Source: Rhodospirillales bacterium (GTDB lineage: Bacteria > Pseudomonadota > Alphaproteobacteria > Acetobacterales > Acetobacteraceae). Taken from it: 59,932 nt of DNA. Where the stretch lies: positions 1-59,932 of the forward strand of contig JANXVC010000119.1 of the NCBI GenBank assembly GCA_025351925.1, written 5' to 3'. This document shows, piece after piece, positions 46,060-57,303 of the stretch. The notes under the pieces were generated by a model, which was not told where the DNA came from, did no database searches, and saw only the letters and a list, made by a program, of their open reading frames with translations. The translations under genes were made by a program, and so were the position numbers. Within the stretch, counting starts at the first letter, position 1. Each line of letters opens with the position of its first letter.

Positions 46060-47427
46060 TTAAACCAGCACGAGCAGCGCCAGCGCGTAGATGAGGCCGG
46101 TGACCACGAACGTCACCACGGTGTAGCCCATCACGCGCTGGATGCCGATCCCGGCCATCGCGACGACCGGAAGCGCCCAGAACGGTTGCAGCATGTTGGC
46201 GACCTGCTCGCCCATCGCCACCGCCATGGTAGATCCCGCCATCGAGGCGTGCAGGGTGACGGCGGCGGGCACCACGAACGGTCCCTGCACCGCCCAATGC
46301 CCGCCGCCGCTCGGCACGAAGAAGGTGATGATCAGCGAGCAAATATAGCTCCAGAACGGCAGGGTATGCGCGCTGGAGACCACGACGAAGGCCTTTGAGA
46401 TCGAGTCGGCCAGGCCGGTGCCCGACATGATGCCCATGATGCCGCCGTAGAACGGGTATTGCAGCATCATGCCGCCGGTCTGCTTGGCGGCGTTCTTCAT
46501 GGCATTGCCATAGGCGACCGGCGTGCCATGCAGCGCGATGCCGCCGATCAGGAAGATCAAAATAATCATGTTGACATCGACGGTGAACGCGCCCTGGAAC
46601 CACAGCACCGCCACCACCGCAAGCCCAGCCGCCAGCAGGAACAGGCTGCCGACCGGCGAGCGGTCCATGCGCCGGGCGATGGAGTTGGACAGGTCGGGTG
46701 GCGGCGCCGGCAGCTCTGCCTCGGGCACGAAGGGCACCACGTCAACGTCCGCGGGGCGGATGGCGATGAATACGATCGGCATGACCAGCACGATCAGCGC
46801 GGTCGGCAGCCAGTTGAACGTCGCGAACACCGTGTCGGACAGCGGCAGCATCTGGCCGGTCAGCTTCTCGACGATGTTCAGCGCATTGCCGTGCGTCGCC
46901 TGGGTGAGCGCGATGGAGCTGGAGATGCCGCTGGCCCAGACAGCAAAGCCGGAGTAGGCGGCGGCGACCAGCCAGCCGAAATCCACCCGGACCTGCCGCG
47001 CCACCTCGCGGGCCAGGATAGCGCCGACGACGAGGCCGAAGCCCCAATTCAGCAGCGACGCGGCGGCGGCCACCAGGAAGGTGAGCACGACGGCCTGGTT
47101 GGGGGTGCGCGCCAGTGCGACGAGCCGGCGCAGGAAGCGCGCCACCACCGGCGCGTGGGCCAGCGCGTGCCCGGTCGCCAGGATCAGGATCATCTGGAAG
47201 GCAAAGCCGAGGATTGCGAAGATGCCGGCGTACCACGTCGTGACGATCATCGCCGGCGAGCCTTTGGGCGCGATCAGCAACGCGAGCAAGGCGGTGACCG
47301 CGGTCAGGCCGATCGCCAGCACGAACGGGTCGGGCATGTAGCGCTCGAACAGGCCGACGAACATCGGCGCAAGCGATTGCAGGCCGCGCCGGCGCGGCTG
47401 CGGGAGAGCGGTGGTGCTCATTGCCAT
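46060..47427 (-). CDS. short-chain fatty acid transporter (AtoE type)
   Basis: A 455-aa membrane protein of the AtoE/TIGR00366 family, about 12 hydrophobic helices. Blocks such as RYMPDPFVLAIGLTAVTALLALL, VVLTFLVAAAASLLNWGFGLVVGAILAREVARQ, FFVPSGGGHWAVQGPFV and VAMGEQVANMLQPFWALPVVAMAGI are typical. It imports short-chain carboxylates. It is the last gene of the minus-strand string that begins with nitrile hydratase, 30 bases behind the azoreductase, and might take up or release the acid. Confidence 0.9.
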   Translation of the reverse strand: MAMSTTALPQPRRRGLQSLAPMFVGLFERYMPDPFVLAIGLTAVTALLALLIAPKGSPAMIVTTWYAGIFAILGFAFQMILILATGHALAHAPVVARFLRRLVALARTPNQAVVLTFLVAAAASLLNWGFGLVVGAILAREVARQVRVDFGWLVAAAYSGFAVWASGISSSIALTQATHGNALNIVEKLTGQMLPLSDTVFATFNWLPTALIVLVMPIVFIAIRPADVDVVPFVPEAELPAPPPDLSNSIARRMDRSPVGSLFLLAAGLAVVAVLWFQGAFTVDVNMIILIFLIGGIALHGTPVAYGNAMKNAAKQTGGMMLQYPFYGGIMGIMSGTGLADSISKAFVVVSSAHTLPFWSYICSLIITFFVPSGGGHWAVQGPFVVPAAVTLHASMAGSTMAVAMGEQVANMLQPFWALPVVAMAGIGIQRVMGYTVVTFVVTGLIYALALLVLV

Positions 47428-47457
47428 GTTTCCCCTGATGTTGTCCGTCGCAGGTTT

Positions 47458-48129
47458 CTAAAGCGTCGCCCCGAGCTGCGCCGCCTGCGCGCAGGCTTCG
47501 GCCCGTGCGGCGTGGTCGAGCTCGGCGCCCATCAGCGTCTTCTCGACTTCGATGTGGGTGATGTCGGTGATCCCGATCATGCGCAGCCATGCGGTCATGT
47601 AGCGCTGCTGGTAGTCCAGCTCCTCACGCGGGAAGTCGGGGCCGAGGCCCACGCCGCGCGAGTCGACGACGACCGCCCGGCGACCACCGAGCATGCCGTT
47701 CAGCCCGCGCTCGTCGAAGGTGAACAGCACGTCCTTCTGCGAGATCGCGTCGATCAAATGCTTCAGGCGATATGGAATGCCGAAATTCCACATCGGCACG
47801 CTGAGCAGCACGATGTCGGCCTTGTGGAAGCGGTCGGCGAGCGTGCTGATCTCCTGCCACGCCGTGACTTGGGCAGCACTCCGGTCGCGGCCCTCAAGGC
47901 CCGCATACTTGGCGTCGATCGCATCGCCGTCGAAGGCTGGGAGCTCGGTCGTCCAGACGTTCAGCACGTCGATGCTGCCGGAGGGATGGCGGGCCTTCCA
48001 GGCGTCCAGGAAGGCGTGCGCCACCTGTAGTGAGGCGGAGCGCTGGCCGCGCGGCGATGCCTCAACGTGCAGCAATCGCGGCGTGGCGGTAGTCGTGGCA
48101 TCCTGTCGAACGTCGATAGTCTGGCTCAT
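47458..48129 (-). CDS. azoR: FMN-dependent NADH-azoreductase
   Basis: A 223-aa flavodoxin-fold NADH-azoreductase. It starts TPRLLHVEASPRGQRSASLQVAHAFLDAW (FMN phosphate loop) and has VPMWNFGIPYRLKHLIDAISQKDVLFTFDERGLNGMLGGRRAVVVDSRG, the pattern of AzoR. It reduces quinones and azo compounds. It lies between the MetX-like and AtoE-type genes in one direction, 47 and 30 bases apart. Confidence 0.92.
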   Translation of the reverse strand: MSQTIDVRQDATTTATPRLLHVEASPRGQRSASLQVAHAFLDAWKARHPSGSIDVLNVWTTELPAFDGDAIDAKYAGLEGRDRSAAQVTAWQEISTLADRFHKADIVLLSVPMWNFGIPYRLKHLIDAISQKDVLFTFDERGLNGMLGGRRAVVVDSRGVGLGPDFPREELDYQQRYMTAWLRMIGITDITHIEVEKTLMGAELDHAARAEACAQAAQLGATL

Positions 48130-48176
48130 GCTTCCTCGGTGGTCTCAAGTTTCTGATGTCGTGGGATGGGCTGGGT

Positions 48177-49229
48177 CTAGGCCGCGCTGGCCAGCAATTC
48201 CTTCAGGATGCCGTCCACCTGCTCGTGGAATTCCGGCTCGATGCCGAACAGGCCGAAATGGCCGCAGATGGTGTTCACCACCCGCAGTTCGCTGTTGGGG
48301 ATCAGCGTCTGCTCGGCGGCGCAGTCCTGTACCGGGAAAAACATGTCGGTGCTGAGCGGCATGACGAACGTCCGGGCCTTGATGCGCCCGAGTGCGGTTT
48401 CGAGGTTGCCGTCGGTGTGCCGGGCCACGTCGCCGTGCTGCCATTTCCAGGCCATGCAGAGCAGGTCGTTCGGGTCCATCGGCAGGAAGAAGCCCTCAAG
48501 GAAACCGACGACGAAATCGCCCAGCGAGACGAAGCCGAGGCCGCGCCAACGCTCCTGTTTGTAGAACTCGGGGCACAGGCCCATCACGCCCCAAAGATGC
48601 GCGTGCCGCCGCATGCCCTCATGCACGTCGGCCTGGTCGTGATACCAGCCGTTTTTCCACGCGGGGTCGGAGGTGATGGCCTCGCTCAGCGTGCTGCCGA
48701 AAAGGAAGTCGTGCGGCGTGTTCTGGGCGAAACCGGCGATGGGTGCGGCGCGGGCCACCATCTCCGGGAAGCGCACCGCCCACTCATAGGTCTGCTGCGC
48801 CCCCATCGAGCCGCCGACCACCAGGGCCAGGCGTTCGATGCCGAACTTCTCCGTCAGCAGCCGGTGCTGCGCCACCACGTCGTCGCCGATCCGCACCCGC
48901 GGGAAACGCGGGCCGTTGAACGGCGGCGGCGTGTTATGCGGCGAGCTCGACAGGCCGTCGCCGATCTGGTCGGCGATGACGATGAAATACTTCTCAGAGT
49001 CGAGCGCGCGGCCGGGTCCGATATAGACCTGCTCCATGATCTTGCTGGTGCCGGAGAACCAGGTGGTGACCAGGATCGCGTTGTCCTTGGCGGGCGACAG
49101 CGTGCCGTGGGTGGCGTAGGCCAGGCGGGCGCCGCGCAGCCGGCCGCCATCCTCCAGGTCGAGGTCGCCAAGATCGAACGTCTCGAACGGACCATGCAGT
49201 TCTTGCGAGTAGTAGGCTTCGGCGGCCAT
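48177..49229 (-). CDS. MetX-like alpha/beta hydrolase (homoserine acetyltransferase family)
   Basis: A 350-aa alpha/beta hydrolase of the homoserine O-acetyltransferase family. The nucleophile is Ser141 in VVGGSMGAQQ, the acid Asp in PLSTDMFFP and the histidine in ICGHFGLFG. It has the helical lid region (AHLWGVMGLCPEFYKQERW). Many such MetX-like proteins are not acyltransferases of homoserine, and nothing here suggests methionine synthesis. It starts 28 bases behind the nitrile hydratase activator and could act on an ester, amide or acyl product of that pathway. Confidence 0.85.
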   Translation of the reverse strand: MAAEAYYSQELHGPFETFDLGDLDLEDGGRLRGARLAYATHGTLSPAKDNAILVTTWFSGTSKIMEQVYIGPGRALDSEKYFIVIADQIGDGLSSSPHNTPPPFNGPRFPRVRIGDDVVAQHRLLTEKFGIERLALVVGGSMGAQQTYEWAVRFPEMVARAAPIAGFAQNTPHDFLFGSTLSEAITSDPAWKNGWYHDQADVHEGMRRHAHLWGVMGLCPEFYKQERWRGLGFVSLGDFVVGFLEGFFLPMDPNDLLCMAWKWQHGDVARHTDGNLETALGRIKARTFVMPLSTDMFFPVQDCAAEQTLIPNSELRVVNTICGHFGLFGIEPEFHEQVDGILKELLASAA

Positions 49230-49256: not shown

Positions 49257-49622
49257 CTAGACGACGCGAATTGGCTCACGTCGCGCTGGGTGGTCATGCT
49301 TGCCGGGCGGGTTGGCCGCACATTCCATCCGGCGCAGGCGTAACTCCGAATTGCCGGCCAGGGTTTTCGCGAGAACAATCTTCTCCAGCGCTGCGAGCCA
49401 ATGCCGGTAGTAGGTCGGCCCCAGATCCGGATCGCCGTCCGCCTGCGCCTGGCGGATTTCGGCGCTGATGGTGGCGACCCATTCGGGCCAGGTGAAATGC
49501 CCAGCCTGATGCAACGCTACCACCAGCGCGAAGGCCTGCGCCTCCCAAGGCTCGCGGAACACTGGGCTGGGTCCACCGCCCGGCGGCGCCATGCCGCTGG
49601 GCCAGCCGGTTTCAGGCAACAT
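49257..49622 (-). CDS. nitrile hydratase activator / accessory protein
   Basis: A 121-aa protein resembling the NHase accessory proteins that load cobalt (NhlE/P14K class), themselves related to the N-terminal half of the beta subunit. The marks are FREPWEAQAFALVVALHQAGHFTWPEWVATISAEI and YYRHWLAALEKIVL. It has a short Lys/His-rich tail. The start at 49622 overlaps the end of the beta C-half by 11 bases. Its presence supports a working cobalt enzyme. Confidence 0.87.
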   Translation of the reverse strand: MLPETGWPSGMAPPGGGPSPVFREPWEAQAFALVVALHQAGHFTWPEWVATISAEIRQAQADGDPDLGPTYYRHWLAALEKIVLAKTLAGNSELRLRRMECAANPPGKHDHPARREPIRVV

Positions 49623-49968
49623 GCAGCTCTATGTAGTCTTCAAACATATCCAGATACAGCGTGTCACGGGCCGCCGCCTGCTCGCCCCACAGGTCGCGCG
49701 CCGCGAAGCGCACGCCATAGACGTGCTGCGGCTTGTGCCCCTCGCCGTGCGCGTTGGTGTCGTTGAAACAGAACACGCCGCGGTCCGCCTCCACGGTGCC
49801 CATCTTGCCGCGGGCATAGCGGGGCAGCCTGGTGTGGGTCGTCGGGTTGATGTTGCGCACCCTCACGCGGTCGCCGGGCCGGAAGCGTGGCGCCACGTCG
49901 TCCGTCATGCGCGCGGTGGCCCCGGTGGCAATCAGCCCATCCACATTTTCGACCGGCAATGCGGGCAT
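49612..49968 (-). CDS. nitrile hydratase beta subunit, C-terminal half as separate gene
   Basis: A 118-aa protein equal to the SH3-like C-terminal half of NHase beta: FRPGDRVRVRNINPTTHTRLPRYARGKMGTVEADRG, then HVYGVRFAARDLWGEQ and LDMFEDYIE. The ATG shares its first base with the last base... region of the N-half stop as TGATG at 49966-49970, so it is in a different frame and translationally coupled. A single indel could have produced this, but the stop/start arrangement and intact flanking linker fit two genes, as in thiocyanate hydrolase and toyocamycin nitrile hydratase. Confidence 0.87.
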   Translation of the reverse strand: MPALPVENVDGLIATGATARMTDDVAPRFRPGDRVRVRNINPTTHTRLPRYARGKMGTVEADRGVFCFNDTNAHGEGHKPQHVYGVRFAARDLWGEQAAARDTLYLDMFEDYIELHVA

Positions 49969-50279
49969 CACGCGGCCTCCTTCGCGAGTTGCGCCATGCG
50001 TCCGTCGATCTCGGCCGATGTGAGCGCGCCGCGCTGCACCAGCAGGTCCTCGACGGCGTGCATCCAGTGCGCGTAGTACGAGGATTCGAGGTAGTGCGCC
50101 GCGTCCATCTTCTCGATCGCGTGGCGGAACTCGTCCACGTTGAAATGGCCGCCGGCGAAGGTGGTGATGAACAGGCCGAAGGCGGTGCGTTCCCAGGGCG
50201 CGTGGAACACCGGCTCATTCGGCTCGGGGTTGATCGGACCCATGCCATGCATGCCGCCGAGGTCGTGCACACCGTTCAT
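49968..50279 (-). CDS. nitrile hydratase beta subunit, N-terminal half as separate gene
   Basis: A 103-aa protein equal to the helical N-terminal half of NHase beta: [37 protein letters not shown], then [36 protein letters not shown]. The ATG overlaps the alpha stop by ATGA. It ends ...LAKEAA at 49968, just at the linker position where ordinary beta subunits continue. The C-half follows in a different frame. Confidence 0.88.
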
Positions 50280-50899
50280 CGAGCGGCTCCCGAGGACGAT
50301 GTGGCGACGCCGGTGCCGATCATCGCGTCGCGGGACACCAGCGCGGCGAGCGCCGCCGCGTCCATGCCCTCGGTGCCCGCCGGGCGCTCGGGCAGCACGA
50401 GGTAGCGCAGCTCGGCGTTGCTGTCCCAGACGCGAACCTCTTTCTCCGGCGGCAGCTCGACGCCGAACTCGGTCAGCACGCCGCGTGGATCGATGACCGC
50501 GCGGGCGCGATACGGCGCGGATTTATACCAGTTCGGCGGCAGGCCGAGCGTCGGCCATGGGTAGCAGGAGCACAGCGTGCACACGACCATGTTGTGCACC
50601 GTGGGCGTGTTCTCGACGACGACCATGTCCTCGCCCTGCACGCCGGAGAAGCCCAGCTCGGCAATGGCGGCGGTGGCGTCGCTCAGCAGGCGCGCCTTGA
50701 ACGCCGGGTCGGTCCAGGCGCGGGCCACGACTTGGGCGCCGTTATGCGGCCCGATCTTGGTCTCGTAGGTCTCGACGATGGCGGCCAGGGCCGCTGGCTG
50801 CACGAGCCCTTTCTCCACCAGCAGGCTTTCGATAGCGCGCACCCGCAGCGCAATGTCGTCCGTGTGGGGGGCCGGCATGCTTGCTTCCTGCTGTGCCAT
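50276..50899 (-). CDS. nthA: nitrile hydratase alpha subunit, cobalt type
   Basis: A 207-aa NHase alpha subunit. The metal-binding motif is VCTLCSC with C107, C110, S111 and C112; Thr at the second place indicates the non-corrin cobalt type (iron enzymes have Ser). The following [23 protein letters not shown] and [13 protein letters not shown] are the standard alpha pattern. It hydrates nitriles to amides. It is first in a minus-strand operon with the two beta halves and the activator. MPAPH at codon 8 is an alternative start. Confidence 0.93.
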
Positions 50900-51206: not shown

Positions 51207-52457
51207 ATGCACGAGTTCCGCCTATCGCGACGAGGCCTGCTCCAATCGGGCGCCACGCTGGCGGGAGGCGCGCTGGCGGCGCCGTTGGTCGCCCGGCACG
51301 CCATGGCCGCCGACACGATCAAGGTCGGCAGCCTGCTCGATTTGTCGGGACCGATCGGTTCGTCGGGCCAGGCGATGCACGCCACCATCCAGCTCGCGGT
51401 GGCCGAGCTGAACGCGAGCGGCGGGCTTTTGGGACGCCAAATCGAGCTGGTCAACTACGACACGCAGTCCACCATCCAGCTCTACTCGCAATACGCCCAG
51501 CAGCTTGCGCTGAAAGACAAGGTGGCCGTGGTGCACGGCGGCATAACGTCGGCGTCGCGTGAGGCGATACGCCCGGTGTTCGACCGGTATGCGACGCTGT
51601 ATTTCTACAACGTGCTCTACGAGGGCGGCGTGTGCGACCGCGACTGTTTCTGCACCGGCACCACTCCGGCGCAGACGGTCAACAAGCTGGTGCCGTACGC
51701 GCTGGATACCTGGGGCAAGAAGGCGTACATCATCGCCGCCGACTACAACTACGGGCAGATCACCGCGAAGTGGATGGGCAAATACGTGCGCGACGGCGGC
51801 GGCACGGTGCAGGCGACCGAGTTTTTCCCGCTGGATGTCACGGAGTTCGCGGCGACCATCAGCAAGATCCAGCAGGCCGGCCCGTCCGTCGTGCTGTCGG
51901 CGCTGGTCGGCTCCAACCACACCGCGTTCTACCGGCAGTGGGCGGCGGCGGGGATGAAGGGCAAGATCCCGATCGCCTCGACCACTTTCGGATTGGTGAA
52001 CGAGATCGCCACCATCGCGCCGTCCGAGAGCGACGGCGTTGTCACGAGCTATGGCTACTACGAGGAGCTGTCCACGCCGGCGAGCACTGCGTTCACCCAG
52101 GCGGTGCGCGCCAAATTCGGCAACGATCTGCCGTATATCAGCGAGCTCGCCGCCGCGACCTACGAGGGCTTCAAGCTGTGGGCGGAGGGGGTCAAGAAGG
52201 CCGGCTCGCTCGACCGCATGAAGGTGACGGAGGCGCTGGAGACCGGCCTCGCGGTTGATGGCCCATCGGGCAAGGTCACCATCGACCACGCCACCCATCA
52301 CGTGGTCCGCAACGCCTATCTGGCCAAAGCGGCAGACCGGAAATGGGAGGTGTTCAAGTCCTATCCGGACCAGGCGCCGGCCGATACCGCGGCGGTTTGC
52401 GACCTCATTAAAGACCCGAAAATGAGCAAGCAGTTCGTCATCGATGTGAAGACCTGA
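51207..52457 (+). CDS. amide/urea-type ABC transporter substrate-binding protein
   Basis: A 416-aa periplasmic binding protein of the UrtA/FmdD-like class. The signal FRLSRRGLLQSGATLAGGALAAPLVARHAMAA is a Tat-type leader. The mature part has IKVGSLLDLSGPIGSSGQAMHATIQLAVAELNASGG, YNVLYEGGVCDRDCFCTGTTPAQ and NYGQITAKWMGKYVRDGGGTVQATEFFPL, all typical of urea/short-amide receptors. It is the first gene of an operon with two permeases, two ATPases and an amidase, and is divergent from nitrile hydratase, so an amide or nitrile is the likely ligand. Confidence 0.9.
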   Translation: MHEFRLSRRGLLQSGATLAGGALAAPLVARHAMAADTIKVGSLLDLSGPIGSSGQAMHATIQLAVAELNASGGLLGRQIELVNYDTQSTIQLYSQYAQQLALKDKVAVVHGGITSASREAIRPVFDRYATLYFYNVLYEGGVCDRDCFCTGTTPAQTVNKLVPYALDTWGKKAYIIAADYNYGQITAKWMGKYVRDGGGTVQATEFFPLDVTEFAATISKIQQAGPSVVLSALVGSNHTAFYRQWAAAGMKGKIPIASTTFGLVNEIATIAPSESDGVVTSYGYYEELSTPASTAFTQAVRAKFGNDLPYISELAAATYEGFKLWAEGVKKAGSLDRMKVTEALETGLAVDGPSGKVTIDHATHHVVRNAYLAKAADRKWEVFKSYPDQAPADTAAVCDLIKDPKMSKQFVIDVKT

Positions 52458-52464
52458 AGCCGCC

Positions 52465-53331
52465 ATGGCGCTCACCGGCCTCATCCTGTTCAACGTCGCG
52501 AACAGCATCGCGGTGCTGGTGCTGCTGAGCCTCGGCCTCGGCGTGATTTACGGGATGATGAAGATCATCAACCTGGCGCATGGCGAGTTCCTGATGCTGG
52601 GCGCCTACACGACGGTCGTCAGCACCAACGCTGGGCTGAACCTGTGGGTCGCCATGCTGATCGCGGCGCCGGTCGCGGTGGGGCTGTTCGGGCTGTTGGT
52701 GGAGCGGCTGTTCATCCGCTTCCTGTATGGCCGGATGATCGACACCATGCTGGCGACCTGGGGCCTCAGCCTCGCGGTAATCGGGCTGATTACAACGATC
52801 TTCGGCAACACGGTGCGCGGCGTGGCGGCGCCGTTCGGCGGGTTCGCGATCGGCGGCTACCAGACCAGCCTGTATTCGCTGTTCGTGATCGCGGTGGCGG
52901 CGGTGATGGCGGCCGGGCTATGGCTGGTGCTGCGCTTCACCCGGTTCGGCCTGATCGTGCGCGCCACCATGCAGAACCCCAACATGGCGGCAGCACTCGG
53001 CGCGCCGCCGCCACAAATTTACATGGTTACCTTCGCGCTCGGTTCGGCTTTGGCCGGGCTGGCGGGCGGCGTGCTGGCGCCGGTGTCCGGCGTGTCGCCG
53101 GTGATGGGCAGCGCGTTCATCGCCCGTGCCTTCATCACCGTGCTCGGCGGCGGCCCGGCGATCGTCACCGGCACAGGCCTCGCCTCGACGCTGTTCGGCG
53201 GCATCAGCGAGGTCGCGACCTTCCTCACCACCCCGGTGTTCGGCCAAGTGGCGCTGCTGCTCGCGGCGCTCATCATGATCCGCATATTGCCGCAAGGCAT
53301 CACCGGGCGCCTGCTGCGGAGGAGCCTGTGA
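52465..53331 (+). CDS. ABC transporter permease (UrtB/LivH type)
   Basis: A 288-aa inner-membrane permease with about eight helices. The block YGMMKIINLAHGEFLMLGAY is the standard LivH/UrtB signature. MDTMLATWGLSLAVIGLITTIFGNTVRG-like sequence (IDTMLATWGLSL) and GGGPAIVTGTGLAST follow. It starts 7 bases after the binding-protein gene and overlaps the next permease by GTGA. Confidence 0.92.
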   Translation: MALTGLILFNVANSIAVLVLLSLGLGVIYGMMKIINLAHGEFLMLGAYTTVVSTNAGLNLWVAMLIAAPVAVGLFGLLVERLFIRFLYGRMIDTMLATWGLSLAVIGLITTIFGNTVRGVAAPFGGFAIGGYQTSLYSLFVIAVAAVMAAGLWLVLRFTRFGLIVRATMQNPNMAAALGAPPPQIYMVTFALGSALAGLAGGVLAPVSGVSPVMGSAFIARAFITVLGGGPAIVTGTGLASTLFGGISEVATFLTTPVFGQVALLLAALIMIRILPQGITGRLLRRSL

Positions 53332-54347
53332 CCGGCTGGGCCAGCTTCGTCGCGATGGTCGCGGCTGGGCTCGCATTGCTGTTCGGCCTGCCGATGGTGT
53401 TCGACCTGTTCGGCCTGCTGCAGATGACGGTGTTCGTGGCAATGGCGGTGCTGGCGCTCAGCCAGGGCTTCATCTGGGGCTACGGCGGCGTCATGTCGTT
53501 CGGGCAGACCGCGTTTTTCGGCCTCGGCGGCTACACCTACGCGGTCGCAGTGCTGAACATGGGCGACAGCACGGTGCCGGTGCTGCTGTCGGTCCTGGTG
53601 CCAACATTGTTCGCGGCGCTGCTCGGCTATTTCATGTTCTATGGCCGGATCAGCGACGCCTATATCGGGGTGATCACCCTCACGGTGACGGTCATCCTGT
53701 TCAATGTGGTGAACTCGACCGCCGGCGACTTCTACACGATCGGCAACGCGGCGCTTGGCGGCTTCAACGGCATGCCCTCGGTGCCGCCGCTCAACGTGCC
53801 CGGCGATCCGTCCTCGCCGCTCGACCCCGAGCAGACCTGGTACGCCGCCATGGGCGCGCTGATCCTGGTCTATGTGCTGCTGCGGATGATCCTCGCCAGC
53901 CGCTTCGGCCGCGTCGTGGTGGCGATCCGCGAGAACGAGACCCGGGCGCAGCTGCTGGGCTACGACACGCGGCTGTACAAGCTGGTTGTGTTCGCGATCG
54001 GCGGCGGCATCGCTGGATTGGGCGGGTGCCTCTACACCAACTGGGGTTCGTTCATCAGCCCGACGGTGTTCGGGCTGGCGGCCTCGGCGCAGGTGCTGAT
54101 CTACGTCCTGGTTGGCGGGCTCGGCACTTTGCTCGGACCAATCCTGGGCGCATTCGGCATCCAATACCTGATCTCGCTGATCGGCACGCAGGAGGCGGTG
54201 AACGCCAATTTGGTGCTGGGCGCGATCCTTGTGGTGTTCGTGCTGCTGGTGCCGCAGGGCGTCGTGCCGGTGGTGCGGGGGCTGTTTCGCCGGGTGCCGA
54301 ATGGGCGGCGCGGCCGGGTCGCCGAAGCGGCGGTGGTGGAACCGTGA
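53328..54347 (+). CDS. ABC transporter permease (UrtC/LivM type)
   Basis: A 339-aa permease with the LivM/UrtC pattern: ALSQGFIWGYGGVMSFGQTAFFGLGGYTYAV, then SRFGRVVVAIRENETRAQLLGYDTRLYKLVVFAIGGGIAGLGGCLYTNWG and GLGTLLGPILGAFGIQYL. The GTG at 53328 overlaps the previous stop; longer reading upstream in this frame is the shadow of the first permease. It joins the UrtB-type subunit to form the channel. Confidence 0.9.
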   Translation: MTGWASFVAMVAAGLALLFGLPMVFDLFGLLQMTVFVAMAVLALSQGFIWGYGGVMSFGQTAFFGLGGYTYAVAVLNMGDSTVPVLLSVLVPTLFAALLGYFMFYGRISDAYIGVITLTVTVILFNVVNSTAGDFYTIGNAALGGFNGMPSVPPLNVPGDPSSPLDPEQTWYAAMGALILVYVLLRMILASRFGRVVVAIRENETRAQLLGYDTRLYKLVVFAIGGGIAGLGGCLYTNWGSFISPTVFGLAASAQVLIYVLVGGLGTLLGPILGAFGIQYLISLIGTQEAVNANLVLGAILVVFVLLVPQGVVPVVRGLFRRVPNGRRGRVAEAAVVEP

Positions 54348-55063
54348 CGGCGCCGCTGCTGGAGGCCCAGGGCGTCACCATGCGGTTCGGCGGCGTCACC
54401 GCGGTGAACAGCGTCAACTTCGCCCTGCGCGAGATGGAGCTGCGCTGCCTGATCGGCCCAAACGGCGCGGGCAAGAGCACGTTTTTCAAAATGCTGACCG
54501 GGCAGCTCAGGCCGAGTGCCGGCCGTATCCTGCTGCGCGGCCGCGACATCACCGGCGCCGAGCCGTACCGGATCGCCCGCCTCGGCGTCGGGATCAAGAC
54601 GCAGGTGCCCAACGTGTTCGACGGATTGTCGGTGCAGGAGAACGTATTCGTCGCCGCCGCCCGGCGCGGCTCGGCGAGCCAGGCGCGGCGCATAACAGCG
54701 GCGACGCTGGAGCGCTTGCGGCTGACCGCGATCGCCGGGCGCCTGGTCGGTCAGCTCGCGCACGGGCAGCGGCAGTGGGTGGAGGTCGCGACCGTGCTGG
54801 CGCAGGAGCCGGAGCTGGTGCTGCTGGACGAGCCGGCGGCCGGCATGACGCATGAGGAGGTGCTGCGCACCGCCGAGCTGATCCGCGAAATCAACCAGAC
54901 GCATGCGCTGATCGTTGTAGAGCACGACATGCAGTTCATCCGCATGATCGCCCGGACGGTGACGGTGTTCAACCAGGGCAGCATTTTGGTCGAGGACGAC
55001 GTGGAGCGCGTGCTGGCCAACGCGGCGGTGCGCGACGTGTATCTCGGGAAGCAGGCGGCATGA
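54344..55063 (+). CDS. ABC transporter ATPase (UrtD/LivG type)
   Basis: A 239-aa ATPase. Walker A is GPNGAGKST near residue 40, the signature LAHGQRQWVEVATVLA near 143, and Walker B LVLLDEPAAGM. IGIKTQVPNVF-type sequence (GVGIKTQVPNVFDGLSVQENV) is typical of UrtD. The GTG at 54344 overlaps the permease stop. It ends by overlapping the next ATPase gene by ATGA. Confidence 0.93.
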   Translation: MTAPLLEAQGVTMRFGGVTAVNSVNFALREMELRCLIGPNGAGKSTFFKMLTGQLRPSAGRILLRGRDITGAEPYRIARLGVGIKTQVPNVFDGLSVQENVFVAAARRGSASQARRITAATLERLRLTAIAGRLVGQLAHGQRQWVEVATVLAQEPELVLLDEPAAGMTHEEVLRTAELIREINQTHALIVVEHDMQFIRMIARTVTVFNQGSILVEDDVERVLANAAVRDVYLGKQAA

Positions 55064-55767
55064 TGCTGCAGGTCGAGGCGCTGCGCTCCGGCTACGGCCG
55101 CATCCCAATCCTGGCCGGCGTCAGCCTCGCCGTGGCAAAGGGCGAGTTCGTCGGCATCCTCGGGCATAACGGCATGGGCAAGAGCACCCTGCTGCGTACC
55201 CTGATGGGCTATTTGCCGGCGACCGCCGGGCGCGTGGTGTTCGAGGAGCGCGACATCACCCGGCTGTCGCCCACCGCACGCGCGCGGCTCGGCATCGGCT
55301 ACGTGCCGCAGGGGCGCGAGATCTTTCCGGCGCTGAGCGTGCATGAAAACCTGCGCATGGGCTGTTTGCTGTCGTCCCGCGACGAACGCCGCACCATCGA
55401 GGATGTATTAGCGAAGTTCCCGCGGCTGCGGCGGTTGCTGGACCGCACCGGCGGCGCGCTGTCGGGCGGCGAGCAGCAATTGCTGGCGCTGGCTCGTTGT
55501 TTATGCGGCGGGCCGCAGCTGATGCTGCTGGACGAGCCGACGGAGGGCATCCAGCCCTCGATCATTGACGAGATTGTCGAAATACTGCAGGCGCTGCAGC
55601 GCGGCAACGAGATTACGGTCGTCCTGGTCGAGCAGAATTTGAAGTTCATCGCCGAGCTGTCGCAGCGTATTCTCATCATTCAGAAAGGCGCGATCACGCG
55701 TGAGACCAGTCCAGAGGCCGTGCAGGACCCGGCGCTGATCGCCGAGTTCGTCGGCATGGCCGCGTAA
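55060..55767 (+). CDS. ABC transporter ATPase (UrtE/LivF type)
   Basis: A 235-aa ATPase. It starts LQVEALRSGYGRIPILAGVSLAVAKGEFVGILGHNGMGKST, the LivF/UrtE start with Walker A, and has GIGYVPQGREIFPALSVHENLRMG, LSGGEQQLLALARCL and MLLDEPTEGIQPSII. It completes the transporter. The amidase gene starts 21 bases later. Confidence 0.93.
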   Translation: MMLQVEALRSGYGRIPILAGVSLAVAKGEFVGILGHNGMGKSTLLRTLMGYLPATAGRVVFEERDITRLSPTARARLGIGYVPQGREIFPALSVHENLRMGCLLSSRDERRTIEDVLAKFPRLRRLLDRTGGALSGGEQQLLALARCLCGGPQLMLLDEPTEGIQPSIIDEIVEILQALQRGNEITVVLVEQNLKFIAELSQRILIIQKGAITRETSPEAVQDPALIAEFVGMAA

Positions 55768-55788: not shown

Positions 55789-57303
55789 ATGAGCGTTGAA
55801 AAGCCGACACTTTCCCAGCTGCAGGACATCGTCTTTGACCTCGGAATGGAGCTTTCGGAGGAACGCCTAGGCATCTTCCACGCGATGATGGACGGCGCGG
55901 TCGAATCCTACCGCGTCATTGACGCGATGCCGGATGACAAGCCGGTCGTCAAGTATCCGCGCACGCCGGGCTACCAGCCAGGGGCGGAGGAGAACGAGCA
56001 CAACGCCTGGTATGTGAAAAGCGTGGTGAAGGGCGCTGAGTCCGGGCCGCTCAAGGGCAAAACCGTGGCGTTGAAGGACAACGTCTGCCTAGCCGGCGTG
56101 CCGATGATGAACGGCTCGGCGACGCTGGAGGGCTACGTGCCGGACCAGGACGCCACCATCGTGATGCGCATGCTGGACGCCGGCGCCACCATCCTCGGCA
56201 AGGCGCACTGCGAGGCGTTCTGCCTGTCGGGCGGCAGCCATACCGGGGCGCTGGGGCCGGTGCATAATCCGCATAAGCGCGGCTATTCCGCCGGCGGCTC
56301 GTCCTCGGGATCGGGCGCATTGGTCGCGGCGGGCGAGGTGGATATGGCGATCGGCGGCGACCAGGGCGGCTCGATCCGCATCCCGGCGGCGTTCTGCGGC
56401 ATCTATGGCATGAAGGGCACCTGGGGTCTCGTGCCCTATACCGGGGTGATGCCGATCGAGGCGACGATCGACCATACGGGGCCGATGACCGCGACGGTCG
56501 CTGACAACGCGCTGCTGATGGAGGTGCTGGCCGGACCGGACGGGCTCGATCCCAGGCAGATGGGCTGCACCACGGCGCCGTACACCCAGGCGTTGAGCCG
56601 CGGCGTGCGTGGTCTCCGAATTGGTGTCGTCACCGAGGGGTTTGGCTGGGCCAACTCAGAGGCCGGCGTGGACGCCAAGGTGCGCGCCGCCGGGGAGCGG
56701 TTCGCCGGCATGGGCGCCGATGTCGAGGAGGTCAGCATCCCCATGCACCGCATCGGAAAGGACGTCTGGGCGCCGATCGGCAATGAGGGCCTGCAGGTGC
56801 AGATGATGCACGGCAACGGCATGGGCTTCAACTGGAAGGGCCAGTACAACGTCGGTCTATTGGATGCCCATGCCGGTTGGCGCGAGCGAGCGAACGACCT
56901 TTCGGACACGCTGAAGATCTGCATGTTCGTCGGCGAGTACTTCACCAAGACCTATCGCGGGCGCTACTATGCCAAGGCGCAGAACATTGCCCGCAAGCTG
57001 CGCGCCGCCTATGACGGGGCCTTGTCGAAATACGACCTACTGCTGATGCCGACGCTGCCGATCGTCGCGACGCCGCTGCCGCCCACGGATGCTGGGCTTG
57101 GCCTGTACGTCCAGCGTGCGTTCGAGATGATTAACAACACAGCGCCGTTCGACGTCACCGGGCACCCGGCGATGTCGGTGCCGTGCGGCCTCAGCGACGG
57201 ATTGCCGGTGGGCGCCATGCTGATCGGCAAGCACTGGGACGAGAGCACGATCTATGCCGCCGCCGCAGCCTTCGAGGGCGCCGGCGACTGGAAGAAGTTT
57301 TAG
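55789..57303 (+). CDS. amidase (amidase-signature family, nitrile pathway type)
   Basis: A 504-aa amidase-signature enzyme hydrolysing amides to acid and ammonia. The Ser-cisSer-Lys residues are K96 (VALKDNV), S171 in GGSSSGSG and S195 in [16 protein letters not shown], at exactly the positions reported for Rhodococcus nitrile-pathway amidase (K96, S171, S195). The N-terminal helical region (about 1-80) is also shared. ATG at 55789 follows CAAGGAG. As the last gene of the transporter operon and divergent from nitrile hydratase, it supplies the second step of nitrile use. Its end overlaps the convergent hydrolase by four bases. Confidence 0.95.

Follow-up and report, generated by a model that had tools for sequence, protein, structure and literature searches.

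A probable three-gene cobalt nitrile hydratase with a divided beta subunit and a retained activator in an acetobacterial genome

Nitrile hydratase (NHase) is an industrially used enzyme whose beta subunit is ordinarily the product of one gene. Among its three-subunit relatives, toyocamycin nitrile hydratase, ToyJKL, acts in antibiotic biosynthesis. ToyJ is the alpha subunit of that enzyme (cited in PMC7329996), which is likened here by description. The cobalt-type NHase of Pseudomonas putida (PDB 3QXE), comprising alpha, beta and the activator P14K, is encoded in the order alpha-beta-activator and is described as being loaded with cobalt by self-subunit swapping (PMC3511329); its beta is a single chain. 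In the thiocyanate hydrolase (SCNase) of Thiobacillus thioparus (PDB 2DD4, 2ZZD), beta is divided at the boundary between its two domains, and the alpha-like gene is given as the last before a downstream activator gene (PMC7193024). The Streptomyces canus enzyme ScNHase (AnhD-AnhE-AnhA) is a cobalt enzyme of three chains that hydrates nitriles; AnhD and AnhE are the two halves of beta, the order is betaN-betaC-alpha, and the operon is described as lacking an activator, whose cobalt-loading part is played by the free betaN, AnhD (PMC7329996). A plasmid-borne NHase of Microvirga flocculans is likewise described as three chains, with alpha placed between the two beta halves (PMC11573777). Gene orders have been set out in PMC3511329, which gives four for NHases, and in PMC7193024, which gives six and whose three-subunit order is that of thiocyanate hydrolase.

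The window, the whole stretch of 59,932 nucleotides analysed here (contig JANXVC010000119.1 of assembly GCA_025351925.1, from an acetobacterial Rhodospirillales bacterium), carries on its minus strand the genes alpha, betaN, betaC and activator in that order, each overlapping its neighbour (Table 1). An initial annotation had described a cobalt-type alpha with the motif VCTLCSC, followed by beta halves of 103 and 118 residues joined by TGATG in different frames and then by an activator, and each of these elements was recovered. In profile searches, alpha reached the NHase level with TIGR01323 (310.4 bits, cut-off 249.85). Of the two halves, betaN matched PF21006 (140.5 bits, cut-off 21.5) and betaC matched PF02211 (116.9 bits, cut-off 27.7). 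The activator matched TIGR03889 (95.7 bits, cut-off 46), though its gene falls outside the range 49612-50899 that the annotation had assigned to the cluster. Against the single-beta model TIGR03888 (226 positions), betaN aligned with positions 1-100 at 137.5 bits and betaC with positions 115-224 at 129.8 bits, each alone below the cut-off of 152.2; the usual one-polypeptide beta is absent, with two reading frames in its place. Since the halves together span these two stretches of the model, the cut lies in the inter-domain linker, with little or nothing lost. We consider it very probable, from the sequence comparisons, that the locus encodes a genuine three-gene cobalt NHase, a three-chain enzyme accompanied by its activator.

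Table 1. Features of the split nitrile hydratase locus and its surroundings (positions in the window)
Feature	Position	Strand	Details
MetX-like alpha/beta hydrolase (below MetX cut-offs), flavodoxin-fold oxidoreductase, short-chain fatty acid transporter	46060-49229		beyond the NHase genes
Activator (nitrile hydratase accessory protein)	49257..49622	(-)	betaN-like domain; 11-base overlap with betaC
betaC, separate gene for the C-terminal (SH3-like) domain of beta	49612..49968	(-)	118 aa; ATG at 49968
TGATG, betaN stop overlapping betaC start	49966..49970	(-)	two halves in different frames
AAGGAGG, Shine-Dalgarno-like	49976..49982	(-)	lies in the betaN tail; betaC ATG 7 bases further on
betaN, separate gene for the N-terminal domain of beta	49968..50279	(-)	103 aa; 4-base overlap with alpha
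alpha, NHase alpha subunit	50276..50899	(-)	207 aa; VCTLCSC, cobalt-type motif
Divergent ABC transporter (substrate-binding protein, two permeases, two ATPases)	51207..55767	(+)	urea/amide-type by best match
Amidase	55789..57303	(+)	PF01425; likely next pathway step

The split is a conserved but minority form. A contig scan with betaN, from which the best 80 of 171 relatives were taken, gave 12 split loci and 68 with a fused beta only; L054, counted among the split, carries a fused beta as well. A family search gave 10 split among the 30 loci listed (34 matching genomes) and a phylum search 2 among the 30 listed (46 matching genomes); whole-genome and plasmid searches added further loci. The order alpha-betaN-betaC-activator with a broken beta occurs in 23 distinct loci, the window included. 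They comprise the window itself, two genomes of the same genus, G041, G236, G305, G115 and G708; Rhodopila globiformis DSM 161, Paracraurococcus LOR1-02 and Asaia W19; seven further metagenome-assembled genomes, among them the near-copies L041 and L043; and five complete plasmids, from Aminobacter MSH1, Rhizobium NIBRBAC000502774, Agrobacterium tumefaciens AF1/95, A. vitis VAR06-30 and Gloeocapsopsis dulcis. In 21 of the 23, the halves meet at TGATG or TAATG, where the third base of the stop codon is also the first of the ATG; L149 has an additional ATG one base before the first base of the stop. The exceptions are Asaia, with ATGA, and Gloeocapsopsis, with a gap. Both beta halves are under purifying selection: dN/dS against the two same-genus loci was 0.158 and 0.266 for betaN and 0.143 and 0.170 for betaC, beside 0.127 and 0.162 for alpha and 0.136 and 0.204 for the activator. 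Against the more distant G041, the values were 0.414 for betaN, 0.248 for betaC and 0.363 for alpha.

Several individual loci have features of their own. In L054 (3315-5652; a Rhodospirillaceae metagenome genome), a single alpha lies between a fused beta on its upstream side and, downstream, a split betaN-betaC pair with an activator, possibly an intermediate stage in the duplication and fission of beta. L069 (1082-2950; a Hyphomicrobiales metagenome genome) has two betaN matches between alpha and a fused beta. In L050 (4389-4980; Brenneria salicis), the alpha match is in two pieces in different frames, so the alpha gene may be broken or carry a sequence error. The record of L041, a metagenome assembly, is titled Klebsiella pneumoniae, a doubtful title; its NHase groups with those of the gammaproteobacterial L039 and L043. 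In three complete plasmids (L175, L176 and L177), PLSDB lists nothing across the split beta, and the series of locus tags skips one at that place, as a single pseudogene call might leave it. The beta halves in the Aminobacter and Gloeocapsopsis records are named 'SH3-like domain-containing protein'. Split NHases are easily missed because public records label the halves in this way or leave beta unlisted.

At the junction, over the 20 bases leading up to the betaC start, pairing with the anti-Shine-Dalgarno sequence has a median of -10.3 kcal/mol in 21 of the 23 split loci; L043, nearly a copy of L041, and L179, whose start lies 23 bases further on, were left out. The aligned place in fused genes has a median of -3.1 kcal/mol (44 rows, one of them at -11.0), and the difference is significant by a Mann-Whitney test that ignores relatedness (p 4e-9). 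Synonymous recoding of the betaN tail was tried as proof of selection on the site and was not decisive: an equally strong site arose in 0.4 to 86% of draws, and in 43% for the window. The Shine-Dalgarno site may therefore be no more than a consequence of the encoded protein sequence. The simplest reading of the overlap is termination and re-initiation, in which alpha, betaN and betaC would be made from one translationally coupled message, ribosomes finishing betaN at the TGA and restarting at the overlapping ATG with the aid of the AAGGAGG upstream.

Models of both halves were compared with NHase and SCNase chains in a re-comparison within Foldseek's list. The betaN model has a mean pLDDT of 74.8, with residues 1-17 under 50, and the betaC model a mean of 81.7. 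Against the equivalent portions of NHase beta chains, the best Z scores were 10.5 for betaN and 15.4 for betaC; against thiocyanate hydrolase chains they were 9.3 and 13.1. The helical betaN and the SH3-like barrel of betaC would be expected to assemble with alpha into the equivalent of the usual alpha-beta unit. Beta residue R52, named as mutated in the PDB titles of the Pseudonocardia enzyme, has its counterpart in betaN, invariant in the aligned split members (11 and 13 betaN sequences). The counterpart of R157 is betaC R47, a mapping that rests on alignment end points rather than on a printed alignment; it is likewise invariant in the aligned split members (6 and 13 betaC sequences). Because one residue lies in betaN and the counterpart of the other in betaC, two chains would complete one active site, the cut between the beta domains leaving the catalytic R52/R157 pair to be supplied by both. 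The activator is retained, so self-subunit swapping, as in the P. putida enzyme, is the likely route by which it would load cobalt into alpha. The role of AnhD in S. canus raises the question of whether betaN serves two functions here as well.

The genes around the locus suggest a setting of nitrile and amide metabolism. The divergent ABC transporter is nearest to urea transporters, yet scores below the curated urea cut-off; together with the amidase, it is retained in genome G001. The MetX-like hydrolase, oxidoreductase and fatty acid transporter genes on the other side of the NHase genes also occur in identical order in G001. Split relatives elsewhere have an amidase and a CbtAB cobalt transporter as neighbours, and in Rhizobium, A. 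vitis and Asaia a homologue of aldoxime dehydratase. Aldoxime dehydratase and amidase also adjoin the fused enzymes of Xanthomonas, Pseudomonas, Brenneria, Halotalea and Pantoea. Because split and fused forms adjoin the same aldoxime dehydratase and amidase genes, they seem to serve one nitrile-amide-acid route. Plasmid pUSP2 of Aminobacter sp. MSH1 (L174), typed as conjugative, carries a split NHase with an amidase and CbtAB, and the strain came from dichlobenil-treated soil. Neither the profile scores nor the neighbouring genes gave a sign of a new substrate. The enzyme is probably an ordinary nitrile-to-amide hydratase with ordinary chemistry, whose amide product would pass to the neighbouring amidase, and the divergent transporter probably carries the amide or the nitrile.

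Four other readings of the locus were weighed against a three-chain NHase with its activator. The initial annotation had allowed for a frameshifted beta gene, and an error in sequencing or assembly, or a frameshift newly arisen in an ordinary beta gene, could be argued from the single gene that normally encodes beta, from the predominance of fused forms among the best 80 loci, and from L175-L177, where beta is absent from a PLSDB table that omits pseudogenes and the annotator may have judged it broken. The break shared with 22 further loci, five complete plasmids among them and isolates too, with its overlap, refutes both a frameshift error and a dying gene, and the low dN/dS of betaN and betaC speaks against them as well; we regard this reading as extremely unlikely. 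The annotation had also named uniformly fused close relatives as an outcome that would tell against a true split. The nearest relatives, the two same-genus genomes and G041, are themselves split, and the fused ones lie further out. Ribosomal frameshifting at the overlap might also yield some fused beta, given that a -1 shift would join the betaN and betaC frames and that a Shine-Dalgarno-like stretch lies upstream of the betaN stop; the bases around the stop, however, differ between members, and no common slippery sequence was seen among them by eye, so that such a product is very unlikely.

Whether the enzyme acts on another substrate bears on a second part of the initial annotation, which had proposed a three-subunit enzyme with a different substrate. 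The three-subunit part is upheld, as far as sequence can tell, by the conserved break, the overlap, the Shine-Dalgarno-like site, purifying selection and the catalytic positions. The different substrate fared less well. A thiocyanate hydrolase, or another enzyme of changed substrate, would accord with the two-chain beta of SCNase, with a match of betaC to the SCNase alpha subunit (E 7.8e-8) and with a weak match of the betaN profile to the SCNase beta subunit (E 8.1e-4). Alpha, however, scored 178.6 bits with the thiocyanate hydrolase gamma model TIGR03887, under its cut-off of 291.45, while passing the NHase cut-off; this rules out a thiocyanate hydrolase identity by profile. Nitrile- and amide-related neighbours are common to split and fused versions, and the alpha-like gene is first here, not last. 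A changed substrate of any kind is unlikely. The split might instead be that of the published three-subunit NHases, of ScNHase or Microvirga type, with the gene order changed and an activator added. On 50 hand-picked alpha rows, we compared eight alphas of other split orders, betaN-betaC-alpha (including Streptomyces sp. NBC_01176) and betaC-alpha-betaN (including Rhizobium WYJ-E13), with 42 of the window's group and of fused enzymes. With alpha as the only chain, the AU test did not reject a joint clade of all split alphas (p 0.0891). The eight were nevertheless set apart from the window's group and the fused cobalt enzymes at 100/99.9, the published types being represented by loci of the same order rather than by the S. 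canus and Microvirga sequences. In this tree the window's alpha groups with the fused cobalt enzymes, and a shared split of this kind appears decidedly improbable.

The history of the split within this group was traced in trees. An alpha-only tree of 106 rows needed six changes between split and fused; these rows were kept from 174 beta entries once near-copies, in many cases a single locus present twice, and alphas with stops or of at most 160 residues had been removed. For a 100-row set, L037, L043 and the split L054 were added, while seven rows that were long or distant, and the fused copy of L054, were excluded. Combined trees of the three chains alpha, betaN and betaC were built from 66 hand-picked rows and from 60 rows after removal of L149, L179, L008, L058, L060 and L145. 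In both, the window's split group is intermixed with a fused beta-/gammaproteobacterial group, and the minimum number of changes is three for 66 rows and two for 60. In the 60-row tree, the two groups unite at 100/99.7 with the fused group nested inside, and the Asaia and the Agrobacterium/Rhizobium rows adjoin the fused group at 98/97 and 93/82; backbone bootstrap values are partly low (53-87). A single split clade, as expected from one origin of the split, was rejected in two of three tests, with AU p 0.0105 (66 rows, all 22 split rows as the group) and 0.011 (60 rows, 20 split rows), and fell short of rejection at 5% in the third, at 0.0758 (66 rows, 21 split rows, with L149 outside the group); the groups and removals were picked after the first tree, which makes these values guides and not proofs. 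Linker length was considered as a mark of re-fusion and rejected: between two anchors, the 22 split rows range over 61-69, with 8 of them at 63, and the 44 fused rows over 61-75, with 29 at 63.

On the reduced 60-row tree, the shortest history is one fission and one re-fusion. Several independent fissions are possible, and L149 may be a fission of its own. We tentatively suggest, at somewhat less than even chances, that beta was split in the ancestor of the group, that the fused beta of the beta-/gammaproteobacterial enzymes, probably including the P. putida model, arose within the split group when the halves were later joined again at the domain boundary where they had been cut, and that the free betaN may double as an activator-like partner of alpha. 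By sequence likeness, the P. putida beta (3QXE) is most like L045 and L180 of the fused group, with the split L175 close behind in the C-terminal half.

The locus offers a natural three-chain form of an industrial enzyme in which the activator is kept. With betaN and the activator, which have related domains, both present, their roles in cobalt loading could be told apart within one operon. If the fused P. putida-type beta does descend from a split one, the group would offer a natural case in which to test how genes are split and joined again.

Among the described systems, the P. putida NHase gives the top PDB match for all three chains, alpha, betaN and betaC, and shares the activator, but has one beta chain where the window has two. 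SCNase divides beta at the same domain boundary as here and likewise has its activator gene downstream. ScNHase differs in that alpha comes first here and the activator is kept; in the 50-row tree, the alpha of a Streptomyces locus of ScNHase order also groups apart from the window's alpha. The Microvirga type, taken as betaC-alpha-betaN from L192 and L197, was matched by description rather than by the Microvirga sequence. The source genome itself has a betaC-alpha-betaN NHase-like locus (G000:C212, L192) and a betaN-betaC-alpha one (G000:C238, L193), both with no adjoining activator match and with alphas below both the NHase and the SCNase cut-offs; together with the window, one genome thus holds three split architectures. 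The arrangement alpha-betaN-betaC-activator is absent from the orders set out in PMC3511329 and PMC7193024 and from the S. canus and Microvirga forms as given in PMC11573777, and we found no description of it in the open-licence papers searched. The present enzyme differs from the published three-subunit NHases in its gene order and in its retained activator.
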